Positions 5,593-24,041 of a DNA stretch of 40,739 nucleotides are shown piece after piece (the stretch's first letter is position 1; each line of letters begins with the position of its first letter). The DNA comes from a virus. The notes under the pieces were generated by a model that did not search any database, was not told the origin of the DNA, and worked only from the letters and a program-made list of their open reading frames with translations. The translations under genes and the position numbers were made by a program. The stretch spans positions 1 to 40,739 of the IMG/VR virus record IMGVR_UViG_3300048916_000152. One strand, written 5' to 3'.

Positions 5593-7431
5593 TTACGTTC
5601 CTATTGCGAGTCCCAACACTTCGTTCGCCGCGGCTTCCTGCGCGAAAGTGAATTTCATTTGCAGAAATCGCATTTGCGAGGGGATGGGCGTGGCTGCTGC
5701 TTTCAGGTAGTGACGCTTGGTAGTGATCGTCGTGGAGGAAGGGAGCATCGGAGGCTCGTTCACCGGATTGGGCAGCGTGATGAACGACCCGCTCACTTCG
5801 TTTGCGAGGATTGCGAGGGTTGGATAGGTTCCAACCGGCATCACCTCGAGCATGAGAGAGCTAATCGAAGCATTCTGGCCCGGAGGCGCGAGGATGATCG
5901 TGCCAACCGTTGCGAACCCGCTGTACGTTGAGCCATCGTCCGCGAACGTCGAGCCGGTGTCGCGCGCGAGGATGAATCCGTTCTGCGCTGCGCGCCCCGT
6001 CATCAGCCGGAAGTCCGAGGAAGCAACTTCGATTGATGCGATAGCTTTCACGCCGCCAACGACGGTTGCTTTCGGGCACCAGACGTTTGCTACGAGTGAG
6101 AAGCGGAAGACCGTGGTCGAGCCGTTGCTGATGAAGAGTCCCTCATCAACGCCGGAGCGGTGCAGGGCCATGTACGAGACCGTGGGGTCGAACAGTGCGA
6201 GCTGGTCCCGAATCGGGTATCCAACTTCGTTCAGGGAATCGGAGAACGAGAAAAGCTGCTTGCGCTGAGTGAAGATGAAGACCAAGTCTCCGTCCTGCAC
6301 AACGCAGTTCTGATTGGCGACGCCGAAGTTCGACTGGTACTTCACGACATAGAAGTTCCCGATGTCGGTGCCGAGCACGAAGAACCAATCGTCCGTGGTC
6401 CACACAGCAAGACCGTTCGTGGTCGAAACCATCGCGGTGATTTTGCCGGGGAGCTTGAATACGTTCGCGGGCGGGAAAGCTTCTTCCGGCACGCCGTTCG
6501 TAATCTGCGGACCGCCGCCGAAGTACAACTTGTTTCCGACAGCAACCCACATGCGCCCCATGTGGAAGGTGACGAGGGATGCCCCGGCGGGCGGGGGATC
6601 ATTGACGTGCGAGGTAGGAGCGAGGATGAAATCGTTCAGGTTCGCGTCCGTCGTCGAATCGGTGAAGCTCCACGAGCCACCGGCAGAGTTGTTCGCGATG
6701 TCCGTGACGAAGTTGTAGAGCGCGCCACCATCCTTGATTCGATAGATGGAGACCTTGTCCACCCGAGTGTCGGTGGAATAGCTGCCACCGATGGTGAAGT
6801 TCTTTAGCGTCTGCGGGCCGGTGAATGCCGACACAGGACTGGCGGTGGAGACGTGACCATTCGAACTGTCCTTGTAGACGTACACCCAACGGTATCCCGC
6901 TGTAGGCGAGAGCGTGCCGGTGACGAAGCCCACGGTGGGAGCAGTGATCGGAGAAGCGATTCCCCAACCCGTGACGGTTGTTCCGTCCCACTTCTTCAGG
7001 TTGGTGCCGTCGCACATGTAGAGCGTGTCACCGACCTTCTGGAAAGAAGTTTGTGCGGTGGTGCCCTTGGTGAACAGCGAAACGATTGCGCTCGCGGTGA
7101 ACGACGCGACGCGGAGGTCGGTGTCGATCAGGTTCTTGATGACTCCGTTCGTGTTCTTGAAAGATGCGAACGTGAGAGGAGTCTCTGCGCCCAACTGAGT
7201 CGAGCAGAAACGCGGGAATCCCGCGCGACGCTTCACAGTGGAGGTCGGAGAGATTTCAACATTCTGTCCGTCGAGCAGGGCGTCATGCCTTGCTAGGACT
7301 TGCAGGCCGAGCGAGGACACCGGGACGAACAGGGGCGACCGGTTCGTGATGAGACCGGTCCACCAGCGGTTGACGTAGATTCCGTCGCCGCTCTCGGCAA
7401 TCTGCTTCTTAATGTTTAATTGCGGAGGCAT
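5593..7431 (-). CDS. Tail nozzle / tail tubular protein B-like
   Basis: The product has 612 residues. It contains repeated blade-like segments such as VGDTLYMCDGTNLKKWDG, GRMWVAVGNKLYFGG, GLAVWTTDDWFFVLG and GDLVFIFTQRKQLFSF, the pattern of a beta-propeller. A jelly-roll-like C-terminal part follows. This architecture, placed just after the connector gene in the late operon, matches podoviral tail nozzle or stabilisation proteins (T7 gp12, P22 gp10 types), which extend the portal channel and hold the DNA. The N-terminus overlaps the small membrane gene at 7409-7630. Confidence in the tail role is good; the exact family is inferred. Confidence 0.72.
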   Translation of the reverse strand: MPPQLNIKKQIAESGDGIYVNRWWTGLITNRSPLFVPVSSLGLQVLARHDALLDGQNVEISPTSTVKRRAGFPRFCSTQLGAETPLTFASFKNTNGVIKNLIDTDLRVASFTASAIVSLFTKGTTAQTSFQKVGDTLYMCDGTNLKKWDGTTVTGWGIASPITAPTVGFVTGTLSPTAGYRWVYVYKDSSNGHVSTASPVSAFTGPQTLKNFTIGGSYSTDTRVDKVSIYRIKDGGALYNFVTDIANNSAGGSWSFTDSTTDANLNDFILAPTSHVNDPPPAGASLVTFHMGRMWVAVGNKLYFGGGPQITNGVPEEAFPPANVFKLPGKITAMVSTTNGLAVWTTDDWFFVLGTDIGNFYVVKYQSNFGVANQNCVVQDGDLVFIFTQRKQLFSFSDSLNEVGYPIRDQLALFDPTVSYMALHRSGVDEGLFISNGSTTVFRFSLVANVWCPKATVVGGVKAIASIEVASSDFRLMTGRAAQNGFILARDTGSTFADDGSTYSGFATVGTIILAPPGQNASISSLMLEVMPVGTYPTLAILANEVSGSFITLPNPVNEPPMLPSSTTITTKRHYLKAAATPIPSQMRFLQMKFTFAQEAAANEVLGLAIGT

Positions 7432-16407: not shown

Positions 16408-16483
16408 TGGCAGACCGGGAAGGACTCGAACCTTCGTCGCACGGTTTTGGAGACCGGCATCGTTGCCGCTAGACCACCGGAAT
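16408..16483 (-). tRNA. tRNA-Trp-like (anticodon CCA)
   Basis: Read on the minus strand, a T-arm GAAGG-TTCGAGT-CCTTC, an anticodon loop CTCCAAA (CCA at 34-36) and an encoded 3' CCA are clear. The acceptor stem pairs only in part (outer bases A-T, then two mismatches, then four pairs) and the D-arm is irregular. It could therefore be a divergent but working tRNA or a decaying one. It lies in the late operon just before terS. Confidence 0.6.
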
Positions 16484-16486
16484 GTT

Positions 16487-16558
16487 TGGAGCGGACAGCG
16501 CGAGTCGAACACGCGTCTCCGGTTTGGAAGACCGGGGCACAGCCGCTATACCATGCCC
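16487..16558 (-). tRNA. tRNA-Gly (anticodon TCC)
   Basis: Read on the minus strand, GCGGGCA pairs fully with TGTCCGC in the acceptor stem (one G-U). The anticodon stem is CCGGT/ACCGG with loop CTTCCAA (TCC). The T-arm is GCGTG/CGCGC with TTCGACT. CCA is encoded. It decodes GGA (and other GGN) codons. It is separated by 3 bases from the tRNA-Trp-like gene. Confidence 0.85.
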
Positions 16559-16568
16559 GCTTTTCGAA

Positions 16569-17252: not shown

Positions 17253-18619
17253 TACTGCTCCTTGTGCGCGTACCATGCGCGCATGTCTTCGGGGCCGACA
17301 GCGTGCATGGTCACGGTGTTTTTCTTGAGTAGGCTCGGATCGAAACCGTTCGGGAAGAACCAGTGGTTTGCGAATCCCGGCCGGTGGCCGATGAGCATGG
17401 TCGGGTAGAAGTCTTGCTGTGACAGAATCTGCCACACGCTAACATCTTCAGCCCAATGCCCGGGGTCTTTCATCGCAGCGACGAACGGAAGAGCGCGCCG
17501 GGACATGATGTATCCGCAGCCGCCGCTCATTGAGTTGCCGTTCATGTAACCGCCGTACTCAGGCCGGTGCTTGAGAATCTCGGCGACCAGTCGGTCAACA
17601 TAGACCGCGGTGTCGTCGTCGCACTTGAAAACGTAATCGAAGTCGTGATCGATCGCGTACTGTGCGATGGCCTTCATCTTTAGGGAGAGACCAACGTAAT
17701 CATCGGGCGCGTCGAGAACGACCTCATCAGCCTTCGGATTGCAAGAAGGCGGGGCGGGTGTTCCGTAGAAGAACTTGGCTTCGACCCCTGAATGATTTGC
17801 CACGTCCTTCCACCACGTTTCACGAATCGCATCGATGCGACTGTCTGTGCCGCTGATGTGAACGCCGGGACGTGGCTCATTGACTGTGCCTGACTCGAAG
17901 TCGCCGTAGCTGGTTTTCCAGCAGACAGGGACCGCGATAAGAATCTTTGGGGGTTTCGCGAGCGGGGTTACCGCGCGCGAGCGGCCTTCGCCGAGGTGCT
18001 CAACGTGAGGCTCGTCGTCTGCCCACGCGATGTTGTAGCCGATGTCGAGGTACTTCTTTGAGATCAGCTTCTCGTGGTCGCAGCTTCCGAGGGAGTAGCT
18101 GACGTGCTTTCCGTAGGAGCCGCCGATGCGCTGGTAGTCGCCTTTGCGACGCAGGCCGGGATTCCAACTCAGCCCGCCCCAATACTCGCCCCAATAGGGC
18201 TGCGCGATCTTGAACGGGAAGCGCGGGTCCAGATGATACGGGTGGCACCACTCGTCGCCGCGTAGGCTGACAGTGGAGATGCCGGGGTACGCTTCAAGAA
18301 TCTCGAAGCTGCGCTTGATGAAGCCCGGGCGCACGAACTTCCAATCGTCTTCGCAGTGGAAGATCCATGGAGTCTCGACGTGGCTGTACGCTTCGTCGAT
18401 GGAGAACAGTTGACCGATGCGCTTGCCGTTCGGAATCCAGAGGACGCCGCCGAGCGCTGCGCGCATGCCGTCGATCCATGCAGGCATCGGCTTCGCGCTG
18501 TCTTCGATGATGATGGTTCGCGCGGGCTTCTCGTCGGCCATCTCGATGAAAGACTCGAGAGTCTCGCGCAGGAGGTCGTGCCGGTCACAGGATGTAACGA
18601 CGAGAGTGTAAGGACTCAT
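17252..18619 (-). CDS. Two-domain glycosyltransferase (GT2-like + GT31-like)
   Basis: The product has 455 residues from the ATG at 18619, which overlaps the protease stop by 4 bp (ATGA). A longer reading up to 18862 lies inside that gene and is not used. Residues 1-215 form a GT-A fold like family 2: TLVVTSCDRHDLLRETLESF at the start and the metal-binding acidic motif HCEDDW (88-93). Residues 225-455 resemble family 31 beta-1,3-glycosyltransferases: ILIAVPVCW, SRIDAIRETWW, KCDDDTAVYVDRL (DDD at 334-336) and GHWAEDVSVWQIL. It would transfer two sugars in sequence onto a virion protein, DNA base or host surface glycan; the acceptor is not visible. It sits between lysis and packaging genes. Confidence 0.8.
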   Translation of the reverse strand: MSPYTLVVTSCDRHDLLRETLESFIEMADEKPARTIIIEDSAKPMPAWIDGMRAALGGVLWIPNGKRIGQLFSIDEAYSHVETPWIFHCEDDWKFVRPGFIKRSFEILEAYPGISTVSLRGDEWCHPYHLDPRFPFKIAQPYWGEYWGGLSWNPGLRRKGDYQRIGGSYGKHVSYSLGSCDHEKLISKKYLDIGYNIAWADDEPHVEHLGEGRSRAVTPLAKPPKILIAVPVCWKTSYGDFESGTVNEPRPGVHISGTDSRIDAIRETWWKDVANHSGVEAKFFYGTPAPPSCNPKADEVVLDAPDDYVGLSLKMKAIAQYAIDHDFDYVFKCDDDTAVYVDRLVAEILKHRPEYGGYMNGNSMSGGCGYIMSRRALPFVAAMKDPGHWAEDVSVWQILSQQDFYPTMLIGHRPGFANHWFFPNGFDPSLLKKNTVTMHAVGPEDMRAWYAHKEQ

Positions 18620-20280: not shown

Positions 20281-20355
20281 TGGTGGACCGGCAGGGACTT
20301 GAACCCTGAACCTCCGAGGTGCAAGCTCGGCGCTCTCCATTGGAGCTACAGGCCC
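20281..20355 (-). tRNA. tRNA-Ala-like (anticodon TGC)
   Basis: Read on the minus strand: anticodon stem CCGAG/CTCGG with loop CTTGCAC (TGC at 34-36), T-arm CAGGG-TTCAAGT-CCCTG, D-arm GCTC/GAGC and encoded CCA. The acceptor stem GGGCCTG/CCGGTCC has one mismatch and one G-U. It would decode GCA and other alanine codons if charged as Ala. Confidence 0.75.
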
Positions 20356-22052: not shown

Positions 22053-22793
22053 ATGGCACACACAAACCGCAAACCTGCAAACTATCGGTCTCTGCTCACA
22101 GTGGAGAACGCGAAAACAATCAAGGGCGAATCACTTGGATATCTGACGGGTATCCTGTACCTCGCACCTGCTAACGAATCGGGCGTGATGAACACCTGCC
22201 CGATGGCAACGGCAGGCTGTAAAGCAGACTGCCTCTTCACTGCTGGCCGCGGCCGGTTCGATTCAGTTCGGAATGCGCGCATAGCGAAAACCCTCTTCTA
22301 CGTTAACAGCCGCGAAGCTTTCATTGAATCGCTTCGCTTCGATATCGCCAAGCTTGCGCGCGATGCTGCAAAGCAAGGTCTGCTGCCCGCCGTGCGTATC
22401 AATGGCACGTCTGATATCGCCAAGCTTGCGATGCAGATGGCCGCTGAGTTTCCCACTGTCCAGTTCTATGACTACACGAAACTCCCCAAGGCATGGCTAC
22501 GCACTGCCTACAACTATTCGCTGACGTTCTCTCACAGTGGCGAAAACCTAGATGACTGCTTGGAAGCTTTGCGCCACTGCATAAACGTGGCAGTGGTTTT
22601 TGACACGCGTCGCGCGCAGGAACTACCCAAGCAGTGGCATGGATTCGAAGTTATAGACGGCGATGCTCACGACTTGCGGTTTCTGGATTCGCGCGGCGTC
22701 GTTGTCGGATTGCGCGCTAAGGGCGATGCGAAAAAAGACACCACTAGCGGTTTCGTGGTCTCAGTCGCTTCGCTGGTAGCTGCCCGGGCCTAG
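22053..22793 (+). CDS. GP88-family phage protein
   Basis: The product has 246 residues. The N-terminal pattern NAKTIKGESLGYLTG, the Cys cluster CPMATAGCKADCLFTAGRGRF (about 49-69) and the conserved NGTSDI (about 116-121) match the GP88-like family, common in actinobacterial and soil phages. The biochemical role is not established. It heads the early operon behind a leaderless promoter. Its TAG stop supplies the first base (22793) of the first hammerhead ribozyme. Confidence 0.75.
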   Translation: MAHTNRKPANYRSLLTVENAKTIKGESLGYLTGILYLAPANESGVMNTCPMATAGCKADCLFTAGRGRFDSVRNARIAKTLFYVNSREAFIESLRFDIAKLARDAAKQGLLPAVRINGTSDIAKLAMQMAAEFPTVQFYDYTKLPKAWLRTAYNYSLTFSHSGENLDDCLEALRHCINVAVVFDTRRAQELPKQWHGFEVIDGDAHDLRFLDSRGVVVGLRAKGDAKKDTTSGFVVSVASLVAARA

Positions 22794-22858
22794 GTCGAAA
22801 CGCGCGCCTAGAGATCGACGGGCGTGCGTCTAGCCGTTATGCGGCTACTGAGGAGACC
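22793..22858 (+). ncRNA. Type II hammerhead ribozyme, copy A
   Basis: Order 5' to 3': stem II strand GGTC (22793-22796); GAAA (22797-22800); stem III of 8 bp (22801-22808 with 22821-22828, one G-U); T22829 and C22830, the cleavage base; stem I of 6 bp (22831-22836 with 22842-22847, loop TTATG); CTGAGGA (22848-22854); stem II strand GACC (22855-22858). All conserved hammerhead core bases are present (CUGANGA, GAAA, UH). Predicted cut is after 22830. AGGAG within the core is the ribosome site for the ATG at 22861. Confidence 0.93.
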
Positions 22859-22860
22859 AC

Positions 22861-23154
22861 ATGCAGAAGAACGACGTACAGGAACGGGAATTAAAGCGGG
22901 CCATAGCCAAGGCAGTTAGGACAGGCGAATCCCGAATCAATGCGGCACTGGCCCGCTACTACCTACTGACGCGCTACGGCGTGCAGATGGATGAGCACGA
23001 AGAGGGCGTGAGCCTGATGCAGCGGTATCACGACGGATATTTCACTGACGTGCAGTTTGGGGATATCGACTGGCCGAACGCCACGGAAAACTTTGCGGAA
23101 TCAATCGACAGTTTCATCGGGCGTCGGCGTGCGTGGCGCTTCTGGAGTAACTAG
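22861..23154 (+). CDS. Early protein of unknown function, ribozyme-spaced operon
   Basis: The product has 97 residues, mainly helical (RELKRAIAKAVRTGESRINA, then a Tyr-rich ARYYLLTRYGVQMDEHEEG). The C-terminus is basic and Trp-rich. No family is recognised. It is preceded by ribozyme copy A, whose core supplies AGGAG five bases from the ATG, and followed by copy B, whose GGTC begins in its TAG stop. Early phage proteins of this size often modify host functions; nothing specific can be read here. Confidence 0.7.
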   Translation: MQKNDVQERELKRAIAKAVRTGESRINAALARYYLLTRYGVQMDEHEEGVSLMQRYHDGYFTDVQFGDIDWPNATENFAESIDSFIGRRRAWRFWSN

Positions 23155-23211
23155 GTCGAAACATGGCGTGCGCGCGCCATGTCTGCGGGTTAGGCCCGCA
23201 CTGAGGAGACC
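23154..23211 (+). ncRNA. Type II hammerhead ribozyme, copy B
   Basis: GGTC (23154-23157); GAAA (23158-23161); stem III of 7 bp (23162-23168 with 23175-23181, loop TGCGCG); T23182 and C23183; stem I of 6 bp (23184-23189 with 23195-23200, loop TTAGG); CTGAGGA (23201-23207); GACC (23208-23211). Predicted cut is after 23183. The stems differ in sequence from copy A but pair equally well. AGGAG lies 6 bases before the ATG at 23215. Confidence 0.93.
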
Positions 23212-23214
23212 ACC

Positions 23215-23457
23215 ATGGCATTCGATAGACCGAAGTTTGTACTGACCACCACTGACAACCAATGCTGCGAATACGGCGTGGAGTTTTTCGCTTCGAAGCT
23301 TGACGCTGCGCGATGGGCCGCGACTGATGCAGGCGTCGAGTTTACCGGCACCACTGAGGCTGAGGCTGAGGAGTTCATCGAGACGGAACTGTGGGAACAC
23401 AGCGACAACGACGGAGACACCGAGTACCGATTGTTCGACGTACCCGAGCGTGTGTGA
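23215..23457 (+). CDS. Small acidic early protein
   Basis: The product has 80 residues and is strongly acidic (EAEAEEFIETELWEHSDNDGD). It has strand KFVLTTTDNQCCEYGVEFFA and helix KLDAARWAATDAG, suggesting a small alpha/beta fold. No family is recognised. It lies between ribozyme copies B and C. Acidic early phage proteins can mimic DNA and block host DNA-binding enzymes; the charge allows that idea but does not prove it. Confidence 0.7.
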   Translation: MAFDRPKFVLTTTDNQCCEYGVEFFASKLDAARWAATDAGVEFTGTTEAEAEEFIETELWEHSDNDGDTEYRLFDVPERV

Positions 23458-23459
23458 CA

Positions 23460-23519
23460 GGTCGAAACGTGGCGTGCGTGCGCGCTGCGTCTGCTGGTAT
23501 CGCCAGCACTGAGGAGACC
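23460..23519 (+). ncRNA. Type II hammerhead ribozyme, copy C
   Basis: GGTC (23460-23463); GAAA (23464-23467); stem III of up to 9 bp with several G-U pairs (23468-23476 with 23481-23489); T23490 and C23491; stem I of 6 bp (23492-23497 with 23503-23508, loop TATCG); CTGAGGA (23509-23515); GACC (23516-23519). Predicted cut is after 23491. Here the ribozyme starts 3 bases after the TGA stop. AGGAG lies 5 bases before the ATG at 23522. Confidence 0.93.
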
Positions 23520-23521
23520 AC

Positions 23522-23758
23522 ATGAAAAAGCTTTACGAAATTTTTGTGCAGGACTACGGGACGGGAGACGAGCAGACGAACAGCGTCTACCTCACCGAGA
23601 CCGAAGTAGAAGAAGTGCGGCGTGCGCTCGAGAAGGCGAAGTGTGGTGATGAGCCTGTCGTTGCAGACTTCACCATCCTTGCCATCAGTGACAACACGGA
23701 CATCTCTGACTTACGCGAAGCGCTTGAGGGCTTTCTGGACGTGGACATTTTCGCCTAG
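23522..23758 (+). CDS. Small acidic early protein
   Basis: The product has 78 residues and is acidic, with strand KLYEIFVQDYGTGDEQTNSV, helix TEVEEVRRALEKAK and an acidic end (REALEGFLDVDIFA). It resembles the preceding small protein in size, charge and strand-helix layout but without clear sequence identity. No family is recognised. It sits between ribozyme copies C and D. Confidence 0.7.
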   Translation: MKKLYEIFVQDYGTGDEQTNSVYLTETEVEEVRRALEKAKCGDEPVVADFTILAISDNTDISDLREALEGFLDVDIFA

Positions 23759-23820
23759 GTCGAAACCGTGGCGGCGTGTGCCCGCCATGGTCTAGCGGTT
23801 AGGCCGCTACTGAGGAGACC
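23758..23820 (+). ncRNA. Type II hammerhead ribozyme, copy D
   Basis: GGTC (23758-23761, sharing its first G with the TAG stop); GAAA (23762-23765); stem III of 9 bp with one G-U (23766-23774 with 23782-23790); T23791 and C23792; stem I of 6 bp (23793-23798 with 23804-23809, loop TTAGG); CTGAGGA (23810-23816); GACC (23817-23820). Predicted cut is after 23792. AGGAG lies 5 bases before the ATG at 23823. Confidence 0.93.
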
Positions 23821-23822
23821 AA

Positions 23823-24041
23823 ATGACAGCCGAAGATCGAGAGATTACCAAGGGCACCCACAGCCTTTCGGAATTGTGGGAACTGGCGTGCGCGTGGGAC
23901 CACATCGCGCCTGACAGCAAGTTCGTGGTCTGGAGTCCGCGCAATCCGTGGGCGAAGAAACACAACTTCGCTATGGGTTGCTTTTTGAAGTCGCGCGACG
24001 TGCGGGCGTGCGGGGATTTATTTGAGGGGGTGCAGCAGTGA
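23823..24041 (+). CDS. Small early protein
   Basis: The product has 72 residues. Motifs include SLSELWELACAWDHIAPDSK and WSPRNPWAKKHNFAMG; it is Trp- and Asp-rich and probably a small alpha/beta domain. No family is recognised. It is the last gene with a hammerhead leader (copy D). Its TGA overlaps the GTG of the next short gene, so from here the operon returns to ordinary overlap coupling. Confidence 0.7.
   Translation: MTAEDREITKGTHSLSELWELACAWDHIAPDSKFVVWSPRNPWAKKHNFAMGCFLKSRDVRACGDLFEGVQQ

Follow-up and report, generated by a model that had tools for sequence, protein, structure and literature searches.

Type II hammerhead ribozymes form arrays in phages and prophages, where they are clustered between genes, and for the phage arrays a processing of the transcript into single-gene mRNAs has been proposed (Perreault et al., 2011; PMC3088659). 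In that work phage hammerhead arrays cleaved both in vitro and in vivo in E. coli, 4 of 18 consensus hammerheads were inactive in vitro, and a pseudoknot between loop I and the 3' tail was the majority form of type II, which feature is nevertheless not a defining one. One of those arrays—the triple one at ardA in an Agrobacterium tumefaciens prophage—carries several hammerheads in series between small genes, and cleaves in vitro and in E. coli (PMC3088659). A 2017 review (PMC6155905) still treated the role of prokaryotic hammerheads as unsettled.

The locus that we compare with these systems lies in a 40.7-kb viral record, the whole of which is referred to below as the window. The proteins of the left side, with an SU10-like portal and a head-closure protein, are encoded on the minus strand; the plus-strand genes of the right arm include a gp88-family gene, a Prim-Pol/helicase, and PolA. 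Between gp88 and the replication genes stand four small open reading frames (97, 80, 78, and 72 aa; here A to D), which, because they follow gp88 and open the replication arm, may plausibly be considered early. None of the four matched any family, and the possibility that they were copies of one another was rejected on comparison. The structural arm contains three tRNA genes (Trp, Gly, and Ala) at 16408-16560 and 20281-20355 on the minus strand; and in one viral contig (L031, 6081-6146, minus strand) we noted a tmRNA match restricted to the two ends plus an 18-nt middle, which might be a remnant or an attachment site. The reading that we favor for the elements between the small genes, to which we assign a probability of roughly 0.78, is that these would be self-cleaving spacers by which a polycistronic mRNA is divided up gene by gene, the ribozyme core doubling as the ribosome-binding site. 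The features concerned are as follows:

22053..22793, plus strand: gp88-family gene (open reading frame; Pfam GP88, E 2.4e-43; PHROG 1617)
22793..22858, plus strand: predicted hammerhead copy 1, type II (pattern, fold, model R1 56.5 bits, E 1.3e-17); stem II 5' strand 22793-22796, GAA 22797-22799, stem III hairpin 22800-22829, C17 22830, stem I hairpin 22831-22847, CTGAGGA 22848-22854, stem II 3' strand 22855-22858
22850..22855, plus strand: Shine-Dalgarno GAGGAG in the core of copy 1, 5 nt to the ATG at 22861
22861..23154, plus strand: small gene A, 97 aa (open reading frame; no family)
23154..23211, plus strand: predicted hammerhead copy 2 (pattern, fold, model R1 55.6 bits, E 2.7e-17); GGTC 23154-23157, GAA 23158-23160, stem III 23161-23182, C17 23183, stem I 23184-23200, CTGAGGA 23201-23207, GACC 23208-23211
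23203..23208, plus strand: Shine-Dalgarno GAGGAG in the core of copy 2, 6 nt to the ATG at 23215
23215..23457, plus strand: small gene B, 80 aa, acidic (open reading frame; no family)
23460..23519, plus strand: predicted hammerhead copy 3 (pattern, fold, model R1 48.6 bits, E 9.1e-15); GGTC 23460-23463, GAA 23464-23466, stem III 23467-23490, C17 23491, stem I 23492-23508, CTGAGGA 23509-23515, GACC 23516-23519
23511..23516, plus strand: Shine-Dalgarno GAGGAG in the core of copy 3, 5 nt to the ATG at 23522
23522..23758, plus strand: small gene C, 78 aa, acidic (open reading frame; no family)
23758..23820, plus strand: predicted hammerhead copy 4 (pattern, fold, model R1 55.6 bits, E 2.8e-17); GGTC 23758-23761, GAA 23762-23764, stem III 23765-23791, C17 23792, stem I 23793-23809, CTGAGGA 23810-23816, GACC 23817-23820
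23812..23817, plus strand: Shine-Dalgarno GAGGAG in the core of copy 4, 5 nt to the ATG at 23823
23823..24041, plus strand: small gene D, 72 aa, downstream of copy 4 (open reading frame; no family)

All four elements have the same order of parts: GGUC, GAAA, a hairpin, UC, a second hairpin, CUGAGGA, and GACC. The hammerhead core—CUGANGA, GAAA, U16.1, and an H17 other than G—is exact in every copy, H17 being C in each, and every copy is predicted to fold into a three-way junction with a GGUC/GACC stem II, a stem III of 9-11 bp, a 7-bp stem I, and an unpaired CUGAGGA. The folds and the model alignment agree on a type II topology in the four copies, with stem II open and stems I and III closed; the stem II sequence is identical throughout. 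The pattern GGTCGAAA..CTGANGAGACC matched four times in the window and in none of 100 dinucleotide shuffles, at the positions that a preliminary description had given for four tandem type II hammerheads, one ahead of each of four consecutive small genes, which arrangement the folds and a covariance model (R1, below) also bear out; the cleavage positions predicted there (22830, 23183, 23491, and 23792) are likewise those given by the core rule. We consider the identification of the four elements as type II hammerhead ribozymes confirmed at the level of sequence and fold, their cleavage being predicted.

The Rfam check proposed in that same description did not succeed: RF02276 (Hammerhead_II) returned copy 1 only, with 19.1 bits (E 0.62) against a gathering score of 37, and gave no match to copies 2-4 in the window. 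Since most relatives are also missed—only 4 copies among 22 related loci were accepted by RF02276—we attribute this failure to a limit of the Rfam model. Because Rfam fails for this hammerhead subfamily, we relied on model R1, whose 57 diverse copies all come from phages other than that of the window. R1 retrieved from the window exactly the four copies (56.5, 55.6, 55.6, and 48.6 bits; E from 1e-17 to 9e-15), the next-best match scoring 13.1 bits; further matches at 17720, 7323, and 39283 were rejected as chance, with 9-13 bits. In all, R1 found 311 copies in about 200 loci.

That the stems conserve pairing rather than sequence, as had been stated for the four copies, held in the folds and in the pair counts of the viral relatives. 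An exact-pattern scan of viral contigs yielded at least 119 stretches, and both hairpins were paired in 132 of the 141 exact-pattern matches listed, which figure includes the four copies of the window. The aligned copies gave a covariation score of 0.778, compared with 0.154 when shuffled; these copies, however, had been chosen for pairing, and the unbiased test is therefore a second viral scan, constrained by nothing beyond the core and the loop I motif. Among its 94 distinct matches stem II was paired at all three free positions in 87 and stem I at all five positions in 86, while H17 was C, A, or U except for a G in 2. The stem II variants among copies include GC, AU, CG, and UA swaps. A scan of genome contigs returned mostly chance matches, together with 33 distinct copies that were properly paired; the single copy with G at N7 among those 33 (L312) has its ATG 1 nt past the element.

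The catalytic core served as the control. With core G8 changed to C, the pattern had 7 matches in all viral contigs, 0 of them with paired stems, and with core G5 changed to C it had 8, of which 2 had paired stems. Paired stems are thus tied to a catalytic core left intact, which is what selection for cleavage would be expected to produce. The two paired exceptions, L435 and L439, have perfect stems together with the G5-to-C change; the stems of L439 are identical to those of L099, so that its core change is probably a recent inactivation or a read error.

These counts bear on two explanations in which the RNA would not cut itself. The elements might be noncatalytic structured leaders, acting by masking and exposing the ribosome site or by binding a protein, with which proposal the location of the Shine-Dalgarno inside the element and the Rfam score under threshold would agree; but single G5 or G8 changes nearly abolish the motif across the viral collection, H17 avoids G, and the full core is kept in most relatives even though these have no Shine-Dalgarno in the element, so that we judge such leaders to be very improbable. 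The elements might otherwise be spacers processed by proteins, whether RNase E or RNase III, the latter being known to cut between the T7 early genes, or else terminators, as the long GC-rich stem III hairpins between genes could suggest. Against this explanation stand the lack of a T-run past the stems and of any terminator call within the four elements, as well as stems that vary freely around fixed unpaired core bases, and we find it scarcely credible.

The subfamily to which the four copies belong has a compact anatomy. Stem II is 4 bp long, the stem I hairpin measures 17 nt in 269 of 303 copies, which length leaves a loop of 3-5 nt, and the base preceding stem II is A in 296 of the 303. 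Of the 159 copies found without a loop constraint, 157 have U at base 7 of loop I and 157 have A ahead of stem II, the exceptions to both rules being the same two copies, L050 and L086. This coincidence, in the only two covarying cases, points to a tertiary contact, and suggests that loop I likely touches the stem II region, standing in for the pseudoknot of Perreault. We found no pseudoknot of at least 4 bp between loop I and the 3' tail, and by inspection the loops and tails of the window copies had no consistent complementarity. In L050 and L086 a loop I of AGAUA and a pyrimidine ahead of stem II replace UNANG with A, as an alternative tertiary module. In another group of contigs, from Gastranaerophilales and the gut (L313, L316, L326, L327, L330, L338, L347, L348, L355, L372, and others) and also in L003 and L022, the loop of stem III is itself conserved (GGCTAAC-G-GTGCAAGCTG), an uncommon trait in that stem, and one that might represent a binding or receptor motif.

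The elements are tightly packed between their genes. Copies 1, 2, and 4 start on the G of the upstream TAG stop codon (that of gp88, gene A, and gene C, respectively), and copy 3 begins 2 nt past the TGA of gene B. With the stop overlapped at one end and the Shine-Dalgarno contained in the core at the other, the ribozyme fills nearly the entire intergenic space; neither overlap had figured in the preliminary description. In the relatives, the last base of the upstream stop codon mostly falls from -4 to +1 relative to the element start, an upstream open reading frame stops nearby in 84% of the copies versus about 24% of the controls, and a downstream start is present in 90% versus about 39%.

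As to the phage itself, no relatives were found by way of the primase-polymerase, and the comparison of the region with deposited phages by DNA similarity gave one 67% piece, inside gp88. Among 80 gp88 relatives a hammerhead was present in L177 only, and R1 applied to about 0.70 Mb of phage DNA chosen solely for containing a gp88 relative likewise gave one match, L177. The hammerhead of this distant gp88 relative (6702-6759) has a 3-bp stem II (TGC/GCA) and lies directly 3' of the gp88 stop, just where copy 1 stands in the window.

Each of the four window copies has G at N7, a core position that is otherwise free, and this G makes of the core a Shine-Dalgarno, CUGAGGAG, ahead of each ATG. The motif GAGGAG is composed of core G5, A6, N7, G8, and A9 plus the first base of stem II, and we found no second Shine-Dalgarno before genes A-D. 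The association extends to other phages. In a deduplicated set of 267 distinct viral copies, from which the window was left out, an ATG lay within 12 nt in 20 of the 23 copies with G at N7 versus 25 of the 206 with another base (Fisher p = 1.4e-13), and a separate Shine-Dalgarno was missing in 20 of 23 versus 64 of 206 (p = 2.4e-7); the G-bearing copies had been enriched by a targeted scan, which selects on N7 and not on the distance to the ATG. The loci with G at N7, the window included, fall into 17 groups sharing no DNA of 200 bp or more, which groups are not fully independent, and in about 14 of those 17 at least one copy has a close ATG. A contrast within a single phage is provided by L047, where a copy with U at N7 has a separate AAGGAG and its ATG at 22, whereas a copy with G has its ATG at 5; L126 and L127 are exceptions to the pattern. 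A natural hammerhead core acting as a ribosome site was not reported in the freely accessible literature searched; the use of the core as a Shine-Dalgarno thus appears to be undescribed and to recur in many unrelated phages.

The overlap may reflect either regulation or compaction, and we offer both readings. Working hammerheads might share bases with the ribosome site merely for compaction, cleavage having no effect on translation, to which reading we concede a real chance, if not quite an even one. The sequence CUGANGAG is one base away from GAGGAG and N7 is the sole free core position, so that compact phages would gain a ribosome site free; the overlap is, moreover, associated with short leaders, and stop codons overlap the element too. 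In addition, the energy for opening the site differed by only 0.2-2.4 kcal/mol before and after cutting in a secondary-structure calculation, which small difference also implies that any genuine switch would have to draw on the tertiary fold. Against an overlap without consequence, the six shared bases include core residues and the ribosome cannot bind together with the ribozyme fold, so that some interaction is physically to be expected. The regulatory reading—in which the core would be the ribosome site in the window phage and in about a dozen other lineages, and a gene could be translated only after, or instead of, cleavage—we put forward tentatively, as somewhat doubtful; if true, it would amount to a built-in cut-then-translate switch spacing phage genes. 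Since most relatives have a separate Shine-Dalgarno outside the element, a coupling of cleavage to translation is not a general rule.

The preliminary description had also called four hammerheads in a row exceptional, which judgment does not stand: phage type II arrays have been known since 2011 (PMC3088659), and up to 12 copies occur in one phage locus. Very long arrays found with R1 within a few kb comprise about 12 copies in L126, 11 in L238, and about 7 each in L226 and L246, with a hammerhead in nearly every intergenic gap of these four; neighboring copies have a median spacing of 480 nt, or about one small gene. Arrays of this kind raise the possibility that the single-gene RNAs are religated into circles or spliced, the GACC of one copy and the GGUC of the next rebuilding a hammerhead around the ends with 5'-OH and cyclic phosphate. 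The stem II common to all four window copies would fit with such a reaction, and ligation was raised by Perreault et al. (2011; PMC3088659), who nevertheless saw no such products. Within genomes, adjacent copies share stem II in 51 of 92 pairs against 22.6 expected, but stems I and III are also shared above chance, and L126 contains many different stem II sequences; on balance we regard religation as improbable. A shared stem II as a sign of circularization we rejected, because the sharing of stems I and III likewise exceeds chance, as duplication would give.

Returning to the self-cleaving spacer, we propose that on the rightward transcript of gp88-A-B-C-D each element would fold on leaving the polymerase and cut itself between stem III and stem I, after the C at 22830, 23183, 23491, or 23792, so that one polycistronic mRNA would yield single-gene mRNAs. 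The stem I hairpin, bearing the 5'-OH directly, would open each unit, and a stem III hairpin with a 2',3'-cyclic phosphate would close it; both ends might be expected to retard decay and to furnish every gene with a standard leader. Because GAGGAG would belong both to the catalytic core and to the ribosome site, the two states should exclude each other: the folded ribozyme and 30S initiation would compete for the same six nucleotides, and cutting, in parting the two strands of stem II—with GGUC left on another molecule—would free the ribosome site. A natural array would in this way tie predicted cleavage to translation within one six-base stretch, in which single-base changes would cleanly separate the two functions.

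The early mRNA of T7 is processed between genes by RNase III; both there and here a polycistronic phage mRNA would be cut, in T7 by a protein enzyme, and in the window by an RNA predicted to cut itself. RiboJ-type insulators consist of an engineered sTRSV hammerhead plus a hairpin before the ribosome site and standardize the mRNA leader. Like the window copies they place a ribozyme just upstream of a ribosome site, but they are engineered, originate in a satellite RNA, and leave the site outside the ribozyme. In synthetic hammerhead switches the Shine-Dalgarno is hidden in the ribozyme until cleavage; both systems would free the site by cutting, the switches being engineered, ligand controlled, and furnished with the site in an extended stem, whereas here it lies in a natural core whose cleavage is predicted.

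The type II hammerheads of bacteria and prophages (PMC3088659; RF02276) have the same permuted topology and core, the same intergenic setting in phages, and often the same disposition in series flanking single genes. The window form differs in its 4-bp stem II, in its 7-bp stem I hairpin with a UNANG loop and an A ahead of stem II in place of the loop I pseudoknot, in an Rfam score below threshold, and in the G at N7 that turns the core into a Shine-Dalgarno. With the ardA array it shares the several hammerheads in series between small genes; the genes differ, and no ribosome-site overlap was described at ardA (PMC3088659). Since the family is large and mostly invisible to Rfam, phage annotation misses a common element that is probably engaged in mRNA processing. 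Arrays of type II hammerheads in phages were, then, already known, and four copies are not exceptional; what is new, to judge from the literature searched, is the use of the core as a Shine-Dalgarno and its repeated occurrence across many lineages, along with the compact UNANG/A variant and the size of a family that Rfam for the most part misses.
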